Positions 41,156-48,221 of a stretch of DNA of 64,000 bases are shown here, one piece after another (the first letter of the stretch is position 1; the number at the start of each line of letters is the position of its first letter). Source of the stretch: Pseudobacteriovorax antillogorgiicola (lineage in GTDB: Bacteria; Bdellovibrionota_B; Oligoflexia; Oligoflexales; RGVZ01); assembly GCA_945865565.1 (NCBI GenBank), contig CAMBEK010000002.1, forward strand, positions 239,644 to 303,643, in the 5' to 3' direction. A program made the position numbers and the translations under genes. Under the pieces are notes generated by a model, which did no database searches, was not told the origin of the DNA, and worked only from the letters and a program-made list of their open reading frames with translations.

Positions 41156-43027
41156 ATGAACTCAACACCCTCAACACCCTCAACGACTTCAACGACTTCA
41201 ACCGGCGCGTCAGCGGGCATCCGAGGGCTCGGTACCGGCGCATTTCGCTGGCAGAGGACTCATAACCTCGGTGAACTGAATGCCAACCACGCTGGCAAAG
41301 AAGTCATCCTCATGGGGTGGGTTCATCGGCGCCGCGATCATGGCCAGCTGATTTTTATCGACCTCCGTGACCGGTTTGGCCTGACCCAGGTTGTCATGGA
41401 TCCCGCGGTTGCGCCTCAGTTGTTGGAGCCGGCCTCGGCGATTCGCAATGAATTTGTGATTGCCGTAAAGGGTCTCGTTCAGAAACGGCCCGACGGCATG
41501 ATCAACAAGGCTCTACCGACAGGTGCGATTGAAATTGCGGTCAATGAACTGCGCATCCTGAATGCGTGCGATGTTCTGCCGTTTCCTGTCAGCGATGATG
41601 GTGAAACCAGTGAAACTCTGCGATTGAAATACCGCTACCTTGATTTGCGCCGCCCGCGCCTCAGGGACAATATTCTCAAGCGTGTTAAGTTTGTGAAGGC
41701 AATGCGCAAGGCACTCGAAAGTCATGCCTTTCTCGACATCGAAACTCCGTTTCTTTACAAGTCAACTCCGGAGGGTGCGCGGGAATTTCTAGTTCCGTCG
41801 CGCGTTCATCCTGCTCATTTTTATGCTTTGCCGCAAAGCCCACAGCTTTTTAAACAGGTGCTGATGGTTTCTGGTTTTGACCGCTACTATCAGGTGGTCA
41901 AGTGTTTCCGTGATGAAGACTTGCGCGCGGACCGTCAGCCGGAGTTCACGCAGGTCGACTGCGAGATGTCGTTCGTTGATGAGGAAGCCATCCTCTCGAC
42001 TTTCGAATCCATCATCCGGCAGGCAGTGACTGAATTTTTTGACGGTCGCGAAATTCCTGCCTTTCCGCGCATGTCTTACGATCACGCGATGGAGCATTAC
42101 GGCGTCGACAAGCCGGACACGCGTTTTGAGTTGAAACTTCACGATGTCTCGCAGCTGGTGGCCTCCTGTGGGTTCAAGGTTTTCGCAGAGGCGATCAGCA
42201 CTGGCGGCATCGTCAATGCGCTGGTGGTCAAGGGTCAGGCCGAGGCCTTCAGTCGCAAAGATATTGACGAAGTGACTGAATTCGTTCGGCAATATGGCGC
42301 CAAAGGCCTGGCATGGGCAAAGAAAGGTGCGGGTACGGGTCTGGCCGGATGGCAGTCTCCGATCGCAAAGTTTCTTTCTGACGAGACGGTGGATGCCATC
42401 GATCGCAAGCTGGGTTTGAACGCAGGCGATCTGATCCTGTTTGGTGCTGGTGGATACGATTTGACCAAGGCTTCCTTGGGGGCGCTGCGTAATCATCTGG
42501 GCGCGCGGCTGAAACTCTACGATCCTGCGCAGCTTAACTTTCTTTGGGTTCAAGAATTTCCACTGCTTGAGAAAGACGCCGGCACCGGTCGTTGGATCGC
42601 CAAGCATCATCCATTCACTTCGCCAAAGCCGGAAGACATCGCAAAGCTTGAGACAGATCCTGGAGCCGTCAAGGCTTCGGCTTACGATCTTGTCCTTAAT
42701 GGCAACGAAGTCGCTGGCGGATCGATTCGCATCCATGACCCTGAGGTCCAGAAAAAGCTGTTCGCAACCATTGGTCTTTCCGACGAAGAGGCGCAGGCCA
42801 AGTTTGGTTTTCTCCTTGAAGCACTGAAGTTCGGGGCTCCGCCTCATGGGGGTATAGCCTTTGGTCTTGACCGGTTGACGATGATCTTGACCGGGTGCGA
42901 TGCGATTCGTGACGTCATTGTATTTCCTAAAACTCAGAAGGGAACCTGTCTGATGACAGGTGCGCCAGGCGAAGTTTCCCTGGATCAGCTTCGTGATTTG
43001 CACATAAGGGTCAACCGTCTTGAATAA
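41156..43027 (+). CDS. aspS: aspartyl-tRNA synthetase
   Basis: A 623-residue class II synthetase of the bacterial type. An OB-fold anticodon domain (EVILMGWVHRRRDHG), class II motif 2 (FRDEDLRADRQPEFTQVD), a GAD insert and motif 3 (GGIAFGLDRLTMIL) are present. It has about 30 extra N-terminal residues, mostly Ser, Thr and Pro, encoded by a tandem repeat at 41162-41203. ATG at 41156 has GGAGG five bases upstream. The next gene starts inside its last codons. Confidence 0.95.
   Translation: MNSTPSTPSTTSTTSTGASAGIRGLGTGAFRWQRTHNLGELNANHAGKEVILMGWVHRRRDHGQLIFIDLRDRFGLTQVVMDPAVAPQLLEPASAIRNEFVIAVKGLVQKRPDGMINKALPTGAIEIAVNELRILNACDVLPFPVSDDGETSETLRLKYRYLDLRRPRLRDNILKRVKFVKAMRKALESHAFLDIETPFLYKSTPEGAREFLVPSRVHPAHFYALPQSPQLFKQVLMVSGFDRYYQVVKCFRDEDLRADRQPEFTQVDCEMSFVDEEAILSTFESIIRQAVTEFFDGREIPAFPRMSYDHAMEHYGVDKPDTRFELKLHDVSQLVASCGFKVFAEAISTGGIVNALVVKGQAEAFSRKDIDEVTEFVRQYGAKGLAWAKKGAGTGLAGWQSPIAKFLSDETVDAIDRKLGLNAGDLILFGAGGYDLTKASLGALRNHLGARLKLYDPAQLNFLWVQEFPLLEKDAGTGRWIAKHHPFTSPKPEDIAKLETDPGAVKASAYDLVLNGNEVAGGSIRIHDPEVQKKLFATIGLSDEEAQAKFGFLLEALKFGAPPHGGIAFGLDRLTMILTGCDAIRDVIVFPKTQKGTCLMTGAPGEVSLDQLRDLHIRVNRLE
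41162..41203 (+). repeat. in-frame 9-base tandem repeat in the aspS leader codons
   Basis: TCAACACCC occurs twice (41162-41179), then TCAACGACT twice (41180-41197), then a partial TCAACC. Units are multiples of three, so slippage would change only the length of a Ser-Thr-Pro N-terminal tail and not the frame. Confidence 0.8.
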
Positions 43028-44078
43028 CCACTCAGATGTAGATGTTCGTTCCTCTGGTATTGAATCCCCTGACTTCAGATCCTTTGACTTCAGATCGTTT
43101 CCGATGGGTCCGTCCCTGCGCGAGTATCTAGGGATTAAGTCTGAATACCGTGGTGACCTGGTCGCCAAGGTTAATGAGGAATCGGCTGTTCGTTTTGGTC
43201 AGGCTTTAATTGGACATGCTGCGGATCATCCGGTCAGGGACGCTGCCACACTTGTAAACCTTCTCGAGGAACTGGTGACGATGGACATGCCTGGCGCTGC
43301 CTTGGCCATGCACGAGGCCCATCCAGATATTTTTCCGACCAGCGATTTTCGGGCGCAATTTCATCTTGGAAATGCGGCAATGCTGGCGGGGAGCCTGGTC
43401 ATTGCGGAGCATGCTTTCACTGAAGCCCAAAAGTTGGTTCCCGCAGAAACAGCCCCTTATGTAAATATGGCCCAGATTTTGATTCACGACCGGCGCTTTG
43501 ATGAGGCGCTGCACTGGATCGATGCTGGTTTGGCGGTTGATGCCAATCATTGCGGCTTGTGGGAAATACTGGCTTGGGTACTGCAACAGCAAGAAATTCC
43601 GGATCACGCCAAGTCTCTTGAGAAAATGGCGCGCGAACGAAATTCATGGGCTGGACTCTCGCTGGCTGCTGATCTTGTCGCTCCGGAAGAGCCGGAACGG
43701 AAGCTGACGTTCTTGGAGGACATATACAACGAGGGTAATCCCTCGGAGGAATTTCTTGTCGAGTACACCGCGGTTCTCGGCCAGTGCGGTCTTTACGACC
43801 GGATCGCGCCGGTGATTTGGCGCGCGAAGGCAGCCATTGCCGGTAAGCCTTTCTCGTGGAAATTGCAGCTTCATCTCGTGCAATCTCAGATCGCCACCGA
43901 ACAGTTGGGCGAAGCCCGGGAGAGCTTGAATGCCCTCCTCAAAATCGAAGGTGTTCCAGCCAGCGTCATCGATACGGTGGTGCCGGCACTGCTGGCGGAA
44001 ATCGAAGAATCCACTTCTTTATCAGCGAACCAATCAAAACCAGTCACAATGGTGGGAGCAAAGAATGAACTCAACTAA
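43020..44078 (+). CDS. TPR-like repeat protein of unknown function
   Basis: A 352-residue protein, mostly helical. A likely TPR stretch is found around residues 120-190 (EHAFTEAQKLVPAETAPYVN, then DEALHWIDAGLAVDANHCGL). No signal peptide, so it is cytoplasmic. The TTG at 43020 overlaps the end of aspS by eight bases and has AAGGG upstream; ATG at 43104 is an alternative. Near the N-terminus a 15-base duplication encodes DFRSF twice. No function can be given. Confidence 0.6.
   Translation: MNNHSDVDVRSSGIESPDFRSFDFRSFPMGPSLREYLGIKSEYRGDLVAKVNEESAVRFGQALIGHAADHPVRDAATLVNLLEELVTMDMPGAALAMHEAHPDIFPTSDFRAQFHLGNAAMLAGSLVIAEHAFTEAQKLVPAETAPYVNMAQILIHDRRFDEALHWIDAGLAVDANHCGLWEILAWVLQQQEIPDHAKSLEKMARERNSWAGLSLAADLVAPEEPERKLTFLEDIYNEGNPSEEFLVEYTAVLGQCGLYDRIAPVIWRAKAAIAGKPFSWKLQLHLVQSQIATEQLGEARESLNALLKIEGVPASVIDTVVPALLAEIEESTSLSANQSKPVTMVGAKNELN
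43070..43099 (+). repeat. 15-base tandem duplication
   Basis: TGACTTCAGATCCTT (43070-43084) is followed directly by TGACTTCAGATCGTT (43085-43099), one base different. It lies in frame within the first 30 codons of the TPR-like gene. Confidence 0.85.
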
Positions 44079-44460
44079 GAAAGCCATCCAAACGAACGCA
44101 GCCCCTGCTGCGATTGGTCCATACTCACAGGCCGTACAGGCTGGTGGATTGCTGTTTGTTTCGGGGCAAATCCCCCTCGACCCTGCCAGCGGCCAGCTGG
44201 TTGGGCAGAATGTTGAGGAGCAAACGGTTCAGGTTCTCAAAAATTTGAGGGCCATTGTAGAAGCGGCTGGTGCCAGCCTTTCTGAAGTTGTGAAAACGAC
44301 TATTTTCCTGAAAAGCATGGATGATTTTGCCAAGGTCAACGAAATCTATGGGACCTTTTTTGAGGCTCCATTTCCAGCTCGTGCAACGGTAGAGGTCAGC
44401 CGTCTGCCCAGAGACGTCAAGGTTGAGATCGAAGCGATTGTAAACCTTGGGGCTCAATGA
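44065..44460 (+). CDS. ridA: RidA family enamine/imine deaminase
   Basis: A 131-residue protein of the YjgF/RidA family, which hydrolyses reactive enamines produced by PLP enzymes. The pieces AAIGPYSQAVQAGGLLFVSG, VVKTTIFLKSMDDF and the end FPARATVEVSRLPRDVKVEI, including the conserved arginine and glutamate, are present. ATG at 44065 overlaps the preceding gene by 14 bases, with GGGAG upstream. Likely trimeric and cytoplasmic. Confidence 0.93.
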   Translation: MNSTKKAIQTNAAPAAIGPYSQAVQAGGLLFVSGQIPLDPASGQLVGQNVEEQTVQVLKNLRAIVEAAGASLSEVVKTTIFLKSMDDFAKVNEIYGTFFEAPFPARATVEVSRLPRDVKVEIEAIVNLGAQ

Positions 44461-44553: not shown

Positions 44554-45042
44554 ATGGGTTTCACTGCAAAAATCCTGGCCAGCTCACTGGCAACCAAGGC
44601 CCGCGCTGCAGCCATGTTCGCAGTTCCGGCTTTATTGGTCTATTTGGCGGCGTCACCAGAACTGCCCGCCGGATTTTCTCGTCAAATTACACGGACCCAT
44701 GTTGAAATCGATGGCACTGACTTTGGCGCCTTTGACGGCGTGGTTGGGGTTGATGAGGAATCGGGCACTTCCCTTAATTCCGGGCAGGTTCGTCGAGTGG
44801 TTCTTCAGAGGGATTTCGTGACGGATCCTTCCCTTTACCTCTGGGCAAAGAACACCATGAAGGAACGCTCTGGACTCAAAGACATCCATCTCGTGATGGA
44901 AAATCGGGACGGCGACGAGGTTTCTCGCTTTGTACTCAGGTCCTGTCAGCCGGTTTCTTGGTCGGTTGAAGCCGCAGCCCTTTCCTCTGGAGGGTTTCAC
45001 GAGCGCATCGAACTTGCCGTCCAGGGAGTTCAGGTTGACTAG
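44554..45042 (+). CDS. phage-tail-tube (T4 gp19-like) domain protein with an N-terminal membrane segment
   Basis: A 162-residue protein. Residues from about 48 onward match the gp19/tail-tube fold seen in phages and contractile injection systems: HVEIDGTDFGAFDGVVGV, VVLQRDFVTDPSLYLWAK, DGDEVSRFVLRSCQPVSWSV and the closing ERIELAVQGV. Unusually, a hydrophobic stretch (AMFAVPALLVYLAAS, 20-34) precedes it. No sheath, baseplate or ATPase gene is nearby. The next gene, a lipoprotein, overlaps by eight bases, so the pair is translated together. AGGGA lies before the ATG. Confidence 0.7.
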   Translation: MGFTAKILASSLATKARAAAMFAVPALLVYLAASPELPAGFSRQITRTHVEIDGTDFGAFDGVVGVDEESGTSLNSGQVRRVVLQRDFVTDPSLYLWAKNTMKERSGLKDIHLVMENRDGDEVSRFVLRSCQPVSWSVEAAALSSGGFHERIELAVQGVQVD

Positions 45043-46612
45043 GCCGCAGGTTCTCCTGTGTGTGACTTTTTTTGTGACGTCCCTGATGGCTGGGGGATGT
45101 CGCAGCACTGCAAAAAAAACATCTGAATTGACCTCTGGTCCGGCTGGAATTGCTGGGCTGGATTCGTCATCCCTGCGCGATTCCGCAGCCCAGTGGTTCA
45201 AGCCCGAACCAACCGTTGATGTTGTGGGCGAAGCCACTGGCAAGCAAGAAGTTACCCGGTTGATGGTCTCCAGTTGCCGCAACCCGGCCGGTGGATCGGC
45301 TTTGTTTCTTTCGCGCTGGGAACTCGATTTGGACACGCCATTTGGAATGCGTCCGGTTCGTTTCATGGTAAGCCGTCTGGGGGTCAAGGTTCTTGTTCGC
45401 GGTTACATTGGCGAAGAATCAACCGAGTTTATCTCCCCGGTCGCGATTCCAGATGAATGGATGTTGGCTGCATGCGCCAAGGCACTAGCCCCGTCCGATG
45501 CCCCAATTGTGGCTTCAAAAGAAGTCGTTGAGGTGATTGGAAAATGGCTGGCCGGATTTGCGCCAGATTGCAACGCGACCTTGCAGCCGGAGTCAGCAGA
45601 AATTTCCGGTTGGCGGTGTCAACCGACGACACCTGATATTTCCAGCACCCTTTTCGGACTCGACAGAACCCGGCAGACCATGATTTCCGGTTGGACCCGT
45701 CAGCCCTACCTTTTGGCCCGTCGTCTTGCGATTGGCATCAACCTTGCCGAGGCCGTTCGTGATTCATTGGCTCAAGATGATCCAAGACCGGCGCTCAAGA
45801 ATGCCTGCTCCGTGATTCGCCGTTCCCTGCGTCCGGAGTTACCGCTTGTTTTGGACGATCCCCGGATCGTGGACACCTTTTGCGGTGGGATGGCCAAGCC
45901 CGAGGCTGCCAGGGCGATGGCGACTGCAGTCGCCTCAAAGATCGCCGCAGAGGTGGAGTCCTTGCGATACATATTCGAAAATACAAGTAAAACGGGTTCG
46001 CTGACCGTAAAAATTCCAACTTCTGATTCTTCGGTTTCCACCTTTCTGGTGACTTTAAAACCCGAGGAAGACGTGGTCATTGGCCTGGCAAAATTCACCC
46101 AAGCCATGCTGATCCAGCGGCAGAACGCCCAATTCGGAGGGCTTCGCCTGAGGGCGTCTGCCGAGGTGGAAGCCCGGCCAGGCTTTGCGTCCGATGTTGC
46201 ACAGGATCCAGGTTCGGTCCTTGGTTATGCGTGCTGGCAGCCCTTTTTCGATTCCAGCCACCAACGCCTCCTGATCGCCCAGGAGCTCGGCCTTGTCGGG
46301 AACCCAAACCAGCCCGCCTGCGTGGGGCGTGAAGGCCCAGGCAGCGGTGGCATTGAGGATGTGACCTGGACGCCCCAGCGGTATGTTGCCGAGAGCATCA
46401 CCAGCGACACCGAGTTTTTGGTAATCAACGGCGAAACTAAAACCCTGCGCCTTCCCGCAGGGACCTACTCTTATACGGTCCAAGTTCTGCAGCAGGTTCC
46501 TTCCTCGATCGAAGATTCCGCGATGCCGGCGGCCCCCATCGCCTCCGGTAAGATAGAATGGCTCTCCGCGAAGCCGCGGCCGGTGATCAAGGAAACGGCG
46601 ACAGCCGGCTGA
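45035..46612 (+). CDS. lipoprotein of unknown function paired with the gp19-like gene
   Basis: A 525-residue lipoprotein, not recognised. Signal peptide with lipobox MAGGC (Cys22), then a Ser/Thr-rich linker and a long globular part with helices around residues 220-330. The C-terminal fragment FLVINGETKTLRLPAGTYSYTV could be a small beta-sandwich. TTG at 45035 is chosen because AGGGAG lies 6 bases before it, and it overlaps the upstream stop. The tight overlap suggests a shared task at the envelope. Confidence 0.6.
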   Translation: MTRPQVLLCVTFFVTSLMAGGCRSTAKKTSELTSGPAGIAGLDSSSLRDSAAQWFKPEPTVDVVGEATGKQEVTRLMVSSCRNPAGGSALFLSRWELDLDTPFGMRPVRFMVSRLGVKVLVRGYIGEESTEFISPVAIPDEWMLAACAKALAPSDAPIVASKEVVEVIGKWLAGFAPDCNATLQPESAEISGWRCQPTTPDISSTLFGLDRTRQTMISGWTRQPYLLARRLAIGINLAEAVRDSLAQDDPRPALKNACSVIRRSLRPELPLVLDDPRIVDTFCGGMAKPEAARAMATAVASKIAAEVESLRYIFENTSKTGSLTVKIPTSDSSVSTFLVTLKPEEDVVIGLAKFTQAMLIQRQNAQFGGLRLRASAEVEARPGFASDVAQDPGSVLGYACWQPFFDSSHQRLLIAQELGLVGNPNQPACVGREGPGSGGIEDVTWTPQRYVAESITSDTEFLVINGETKTLRLPAGTYSYTVQVLQQVPSSIEDSAMPAAPIASGKIEWLSAKPRPVIKETATAG

Positions 46613-46655: not shown

Positions 46656-48221
46656 ATGCTCGATATCCTATCGAATGGTTTCAAGCAGGCGCGGGACACG
46701 CTCAAGGGCGTCTCGACGCTGACGGAAGACAATCTCAACGGTGCCCTCAACGCGGTCCGGCAAAGTTTGCTTGATGCCGACGTTGAATACGGTGTCGCCA
46801 AGTCATTTTTGAAGCGTGTGCAAGATGGGGCCCTTGGGCGCTCCGTTCAAGTCCGCGCCGGCAGCGGCGATTCGCGGATGAAGGTCCGTCCTGGCGACCA
46901 CTTTGTCGACATTTGCCGTCAGGAACTTGAAAGCCTGATGGGCCCAGTCGACATCAGCCTCAATCTGCCTTCCAACCGCCCGGCGACCGTGATGATGATC
47001 GGTCTGCAAGGTAGCGGCAAAACCACGACCACAGGCAAAATTGCGCGGTACCTGCAGAAGGCCGGACGTAAACCGATGCTGGTTGCGGCCGACATTTACC
47101 GTCCTGCTGCCATCGAACAATTGAAAGTCCTGGGCCAGCGCCTTGGCGCTCCTGTTTTTTCACTGCCGGGCGCCGAGCCCGTTGAAATTTGTCGCCAGGC
47201 TTTGGCTGCCGCCACTGACCTTGGAGCTGACGTCGTTATTTTCGACACCGCTGGTCGTTTAACGATCGACGATGGCCTCATGACTGAGTTGGAAAACATC
47301 AAGCGCATGGCGCATCCCGATAACATCTTGCTCGTTTGCGATGCGATGATGGGTCAGGACGCGGTTACCACGGCAAAGGCTTTCGACAGCCGCATTGGCA
47401 TCGACGGTGTGGTCATCACCAAACTGGACGGCGATGCCCGCGGTGGTGCAGCGCTAAGCATCAAAGAAGTTACAGGCAAGCCAATCAAATTCCTCGGTAT
47501 GGGCGAAGACCTCGATCGTCTCGAGGAATTTCGTCCAGAGGGTCTGGCCAGCCGGATCCTTGGCATGGGCGATATTGTCGGTTTGATGAAGGATTTCGAT
47601 CGTGTGTCGGATGGCGACCGCGAAGCCGAAGCCATGAAGATGCTCAAAGGGCAATTCAACTTCCGGGATTTCTACGAGCAGCTTTCCAGCATTCAGAAAA
47701 TGGGATCGTTGAAAGAGGTCATGGCCAAACTGCCGATGCAAGGCATGATCCCGAAGGACGTCAATCTTGATGATCGTGAACTGACCAAGGTCAAAGCGAT
47801 GATCGACTCCATGACGGAAAAAGAGCGAATCGATCCAAATTGTTTTAACGACAGTCGGATCAAGCGTGTCGCCCGTGGTTCTGGGCGTCAGGCGAAAGAG
47901 GTTTCCGACCTGTTAAAGCGTTTTAAGCAGATGCGCCAGATGATGGGCATGTTTGGGCAAGGGATGGGTCTTCTTGGGAAAATCCCAGGTGGCAAGGCCT
48001 TGGGGCAGCTCAACCAATTGCGCAACATGGCCAAACAGGCCGGAATGGGCGGCGGCATTCCAGGTTTTGGTGGCGGCATGCCAGATTTCGGTGCTATGGG
48101 CGGGCTCTTTGGTGGGGGGGGCGCTGAGGCCGAAGCCAAGGTAGCCCGACCGGTTGACCGGGACAAGCTCCGCAAGATGCGCAAGGCTGCAAAAACTGCG
48201 AGAAAGAAAAACCGCAAATGA
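46656..48221 (+). CDS. ffh: signal recognition particle protein Ffh
   Basis: A 521-residue SRP GTPase that targets nascent membrane proteins to FtsY and SecYEG. N domain, G domain with GLQGSGKTTT (116-125), DTAGR and TKLDGDARGG, then the methionine-rich M domain. The C-terminus is longer than usual (E. coli 453), with a Gly/Met-rich linker and a basic tail. 43 bases separate it from the lipoprotein gene; its stop overlaps the miaB start (ATGA). Confidence 0.95.
   Translation: MLDILSNGFKQARDTLKGVSTLTEDNLNGALNAVRQSLLDADVEYGVAKSFLKRVQDGALGRSVQVRAGSGDSRMKVRPGDHFVDICRQELESLMGPVDISLNLPSNRPATVMMIGLQGSGKTTTTGKIARYLQKAGRKPMLVAADIYRPAAIEQLKVLGQRLGAPVFSLPGAEPVEICRQALAAATDLGADVVIFDTAGRLTIDDGLMTELENIKRMAHPDNILLVCDAMMGQDAVTTAKAFDSRIGIDGVVITKLDGDARGGAALSIKEVTGKPIKFLGMGEDLDRLEEFRPEGLASRILGMGDIVGLMKDFDRVSDGDREAEAMKMLKGQFNFRDFYEQLSSIQKMGSLKEVMAKLPMQGMIPKDVNLDDRELTKVKAMIDSMTEKERIDPNCFNDSRIKRVARGSGRQAKEVSDLLKRFKQMRQMMGMFGQGMGLLGKIPGGKALGQLNQLRNMAKQAGMGGGIPGFGGGMPDFGAMGGLFGGGGAEAEAKVARPVDRDKLRKMRKAAKTARKKNRK

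Follow-up and report, generated by a model that had tools for sequence, protein, structure and literature searches.

Proteins of the tail-tube fold are familiar from phage tails, tailocins, contractile injection systems (CIS) and T6SS, all of which are assembled in the cytoplasm. The stretch of DNA analyzed here (the window; 64,000 nucleotides of Pseudobacteriovorax antillogorgiicola) encodes a protein with this predicted fold behind a hydrophobic segment, and its gene overlaps that of a putative lipoprotein, which raises the question of what use a cell makes of a tube-fold protein in such company. The answer that we prefer, with a rough probability of 0.45, is that the two genes form a domesticated, vertically inherited envelope module, in which an exported tube-fold protein is held by the lipoprotein. 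The pair occurs in nearly every Oligoflexales genome, suggesting that a component of phage tails became permanently integrated into the envelope. If so, a part of a phage tail has turned into a core cell-envelope component; confirmation would mean that domesticated phage parts can end in a new kind of role, and the pair would give a little-studied group a clear candidate, open to testing, for an envelope structure of unknown kind. A few searches of open-licence papers found no description of such a tube-fold/lipoprotein pair. The initial annotation had suggested an exapted envelope structure with the tube domain anchored in a membrane; our analyses bear out the envelope use, given the export signals on both proteins, as well as the pairing, but not the membrane anchoring.

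Predicted tail-tube fold of the upstream gene product

The open reading frame at positions 44,554-45,042 on the forward strand was confirmed and encodes 162 residues. A Pfam search matched residues 80-158 to PF06841 with 28.9 bits (E=1.1e-6; cut-off 28.2 bits), and 28 of 30 orthologs also matched this family at E<=1. In NCBIfam, TIGR02241 (phage tail region protein) matched the window's protein with E=1.3e-4, under the model's cut-off, and matched 23 of 27 orthologs with a best E of 9.7e-8. The same 27 orthologs included 12 with weak matches to the CIS5 tube adaptor profile (best E=9.5e-5) and six with weak matches to the CIS1 profile. The AlphaFold2 model, built from a 27-sequence alignment (mean pLDDT 75.9, pTM 0.61), consists of strands around one helix, as in tube proteins, with low confidence at the N-terminus and in the beta2-beta3 loop; together with the fold search it places the tube-fold domain at residues 47-161 (44,692-45,036, forward strand). 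All 25 PDB matches to this model at E<=0.001 were CIS, phage-tail or Hcp chains.

Searches of the PDB by sequence were weak, with ortholog alignment A1 returning CIS tubes at E=0.046-0.8, and the assignment of the fold is therefore based on Pfam, NCBIfam and structure comparison. Alignment A3 returned Cys-loop channels, which we rejected as unrelated, and a PHROGs search gave nothing useful. Profile and model together place the 162-residue protein in the PF06841 fold family. A tail-tube fold had been proposed in the initial annotation, which had also named profile search and structure prediction beforehand as the check that could overturn it; both recovered the fold. The CIS tube and tube-adaptor proteins (Pvc1, Afp1/CIS1; CIS5; PF06841, TIGR02241) share sequence family and fold with the window's protein, and CIS tube proteins also have the helix motif RDFVTDPSLYLWAK in common with it. 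T4 gp19 gives PF06841 its name, and hhalign found no match between gp19 itself and alignment A3; the window's protein is nearer to the CIS branch of the family than to T4 gp19.

A putative lipoprotein encoded in an overlapping frame

The second open reading frame extends from a TTG at 45,035 to 46,612 on the forward strand, encodes 525 residues and overlaps the tube gene by eight bases, as initially annotated, although its start is uncertain (alternative TTG at 45,014). Its predicted lipoprotein signal sequence (45,035-45,100, forward strand) runs through lipobox Cys22, which aligns with the ortholog lipoboxes and is invariant in the 27 aligned orthologs. The lipoboxes of most of these are canonical (VASC and VGVSC among them), and the window's own, AGGC, is less typical. 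Seven further cysteines are invariant among the aligned orthologs, as expected for a disulfide-bonded protein outside the cytoplasm. Asp follows the lipobox Cys in only one of the 27, a rarity that would argue for the outer membrane under a rule that is E. coli's and may not hold in Oligoflexales. The lipoprotein had no sequence match in Pfam, PHROGs, NCBIfam or the PDB, and a fold search with its structure model (pLDDT 77.0, pTM 0.76) returned nothing better than E=0.44. As far as sequence and model comparisons reach, the lipoprotein from the downstream gene thus has no place among known families or folds.

The lipoprotein gene has an ATG in 31 of 41 relatives from which it would overlap the tube gene by 44 nt. 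This ATG falls among the codons of a GGFHE motif (residues 146-150; 44,989-45,003, forward strand), just downstream of a GGNGG stretch formed by the motif's two glycine codons. At 44,999-45,001 of the window this ancestral ATG is replaced by ACG, as it is at the same position in loci L043 and L059, so that the lipoprotein of the window and its nearest relative probably starts at a downstream TTG (45,014 or 45,035). The Gly-Gly codon stretch ahead of the ACG in the window, L043 and L059 could serve as a ribosome-binding site.

Distribution and conservation of the gene pair

A profile search for the tube gene was positive in 41 of the 43 Oligoflexales genomes and in none of 15 genomes of the same class outside the order. 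The lipoprotein was recognized in 37 of the 41; in all of these its gene comes immediately after the tube gene and has the same orientation. Among the other four, the contig of G022 ends just past the tube gene, and G015, G020 and G021 have an open reading frame at the lipoprotein position that the profile did not recognize. Outside the order, two genomes of the class gave weak lipoprotein matches with E 0.003-0.004; these were rejected as chance, since each spans 70 columns of a longer frame and neither genome has a tube gene. The window's tube gene is the only PF06841 match above cut-off in the whole genome (90% complete), and every PF06841 match in 56 sampled genomes of the phylum is the pair's own locus. 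By these searches, Oligoflexales carry the pair in single copy at a chromosomal locus.

The order AspS-TPR-RidA-pair-Ffh-MiaB recurs, with local changes, in Oligoflexales loci. Outside the module itself, the upstream neighbor in most loci is the RidA gene (44,065-44,460, forward strand; PF01042, E=1.6e-45), and homologs of the Ffh (SRP54) gene (46,656-48,221, forward strand) lie directly downstream in many; a search with the window's Ffh protein found it in all six further genomes covered. A TPR-repeat protein is encoded at 43,020-44,078 on the forward strand of the window, between AspS and RidA as in many loci of the order. Further upstream, on the opposite strand, are a NuoC-NuoD fusion (PF00329 and PF00346; 37,326-39,047) and a TMEM260-like O-mannosyltransferase-type membrane protein (PF11028; 39,118-41,220).

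Two genomes of the order are without the pair. G019 retains TPR, RidA, Ffh and MiaB, and exactly the two pair genes are absent between RidA and Ffh; because the rest of Oligoflexales carries the pair, its joint loss is the likeliest explanation. The small genome G040 also has neither gene. Co-conservation in related genomes, on which the initial annotation had staked the pairing, thus holds in 37 of 41 genomes and extends to joint absence in G019. Since RidA and Ffh are both retained where the pair is missing, we discarded the idea that the pair is functionally linked to either.

Between close relatives, the tube gene had a dN/dS of 0.04 and the lipoprotein gene one of 0.10, values that point to strong purifying selection on the pair and, together with the order-wide conservation, exclude chance open reading frames. 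The partial correlation between tube and lipoprotein distances was 0.29, 0.49, 0.58 and 0.72 when Ffh, AspS, MiaB and RidA, respectively, served as the single control gene; with Ffh and MiaB controlled together it was 0.38, and the pairings with RidA gave 0.22 and 0.11. These values lend modest support to co-evolution of the pair, and part of the correlation may stem from shared rate and locus.

A proposed envelope module

In the module that we propose, the tube-fold protein would be exported by Sec and its signal peptide removed after Ala39, which would release the bare tube-fold domain outside the inner membrane. The lipoprotein from the overlapping gene, rich in cysteines and carrying its lipid at Cys22, would probably bind the tube-fold domain and hold it at the outer membrane, where the complex could have a structural role. 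Assembled on the lipoprotein, the domain would more likely form one ring or a short collar than a long tube, a preference that we base on the stacking loop, which is about half the usual length. Whether the pair amounts to an undescribed envelope structure, with secreted rings or short tubes of the tail-tube fold docked on a dedicated lipoprotein and no contractile machinery, is a more tentative proposition, which we judge possible but short of an even chance.

Ring, tube or monomer

The rings of canonical tubes contact each other through a beta2-beta3 loop of 25-28 residues (PMC6088184). The corresponding loop of the window's tube-fold protein (residues 65-79; 44,746-44,790, forward strand) has 15 residues in the AlphaFold2 model. 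It has 8-19 residues in 38 orthologs, and the median across all 41 is 15; three relatives, L074 (G024), L081 (G015) and L082 (G021), have loops of 44-56 residues by insertion. When aligned with a Streptomyces CIS protein, the latter has a 14-residue insertion at this loop. T5 and SPP1 no longer form tubes once the loop is removed, and its deletion in phage YSD1 yields mostly hexameric rings (PMC8718954). By analogy with these systems, the shortness of the loop makes a stacked tube of the usual kind unlikely here, and a single ring or a non-tube use appears likelier than a tube.

The non-tube use could go as far as a lone beta-sandwich outside the inner membrane that binds the lipoprotein as partner, subunit or chaperone and builds neither ring nor tube. 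A short stacking loop of variable length among the orthologs would suit such a protein, as would the conservation of the lipoprotein together with it, and several tube proteins exist as monomers until they assemble (PMC8718954). Strong purifying selection has nevertheless maintained the core motifs of the tube fold, and the YSD1 deletion promoted hexameric rings (PMC8718954). We therefore regard a lone monomer as somewhat doubtful and retain the ring or short collar as the favored form of the module.

Signal peptide or membrane anchor

The initial annotation took the tube protein to be membrane-anchored by its hydrophobic stretch, which covers about residues 20-33. The N-terminal segment has a basic N-region, a hydrophobic core and small residues at positions -3 and -1, and this pattern is conserved among the orthologs. 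The -1 position is Ala in 39 of 41 orthologs, and the -3 position is L, S, I, V, A or T in 39 of 41. Otherwise the segment ahead of the tube fold varies, so that the -1 Ala, which directly precedes the fold, is its sole strongly conserved feature across the 41 orthologs. Because the conserved Ala and the -3 residue fit a signal peptidase I site, we read residues 1-39 (44,554-44,670, forward strand), with Ala39 the last, as a probable cleavable signal peptide. This pattern accordingly favors cleavage and release over retention of the hydrophobic segment as an anchor.

Were the segment to stay uncleaved, it would tether the tube-fold domain to the inner membrane on the periplasmic side, across from the lipoprotein. 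The hydrophobic helix is long enough for this (residues 7-33 are helical in the AlphaFold2 model), and many orthologs have charged residues near the proposed cleavage site. Retention of the -1 Ala in an otherwise variable segment, next to a -3 residue that suits signal peptidase I, speaks against an anchor, which we consider unlikely. The released domain held by the lipoprotein thus remains our preferred arrangement.

Relation to contractile systems and phages

Neither the sheath family PF04984 nor the gp25 family PF04965 was found in the whole genome (90% complete), which agrees with the absence of contractile partners noted in the initial annotation and extends it beyond the window. No spike, other baseplate or AAA+ genes were found among the conserved neighbors named at the locus. 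Sheath matches occurred in three of 41 members of the order and in two others among the 56 sampled genomes of the phylum. Searches of viral contigs and of phage records found nothing related to the tube protein, and plasmid records gave no relative of the lipoprotein. Because the partner genes are absent and the stacking loop is not of the usual length, the tube-fold protein is, by these sheath (PF04984), gp25 (PF04965) and loop comparisons, not the tube of a contractile system.

An origin of the gene as a remnant or stray component of a prophage, tailocin, contractile injection system or T6SS is highly improbable: the tube fold and the weak CIS5 and CIS1 profile matches would fit such an origin, but the genome has no sheath or gp25 by a search that covered PF04984 and PF04965 and no T6SS sheath family, sheath genes occur in just three of 41 order members, viral contigs and phage records hold no relatives, the gene sits at a fixed housekeeping locus with a dN/dS of 0.04, and its product carries an export signal.

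In contrast to CIS tubes, the window's protein has a probable signal peptide, a paired lipoprotein and a fixed chromosomal locus; its stacking loop is about half as long, and its genome is devoid of sheath and gp25 genes. T6SS Hcp proteins are among its PDB fold matches, with E down to 4.7e-6, but neither Pfam nor NCBIfam gave an Hcp-family sequence match, and the export signal sets it apart from Hcp as well.

One Oligoflexales genome, G014, contains four PF04984 matches (C1:148680-149141, C116:13533-13994, C152:3281-3742 and C114:24943-25383) and no PF06841 match at E<=0.001; these sheath matches probably belong to prophages or to another tail type.
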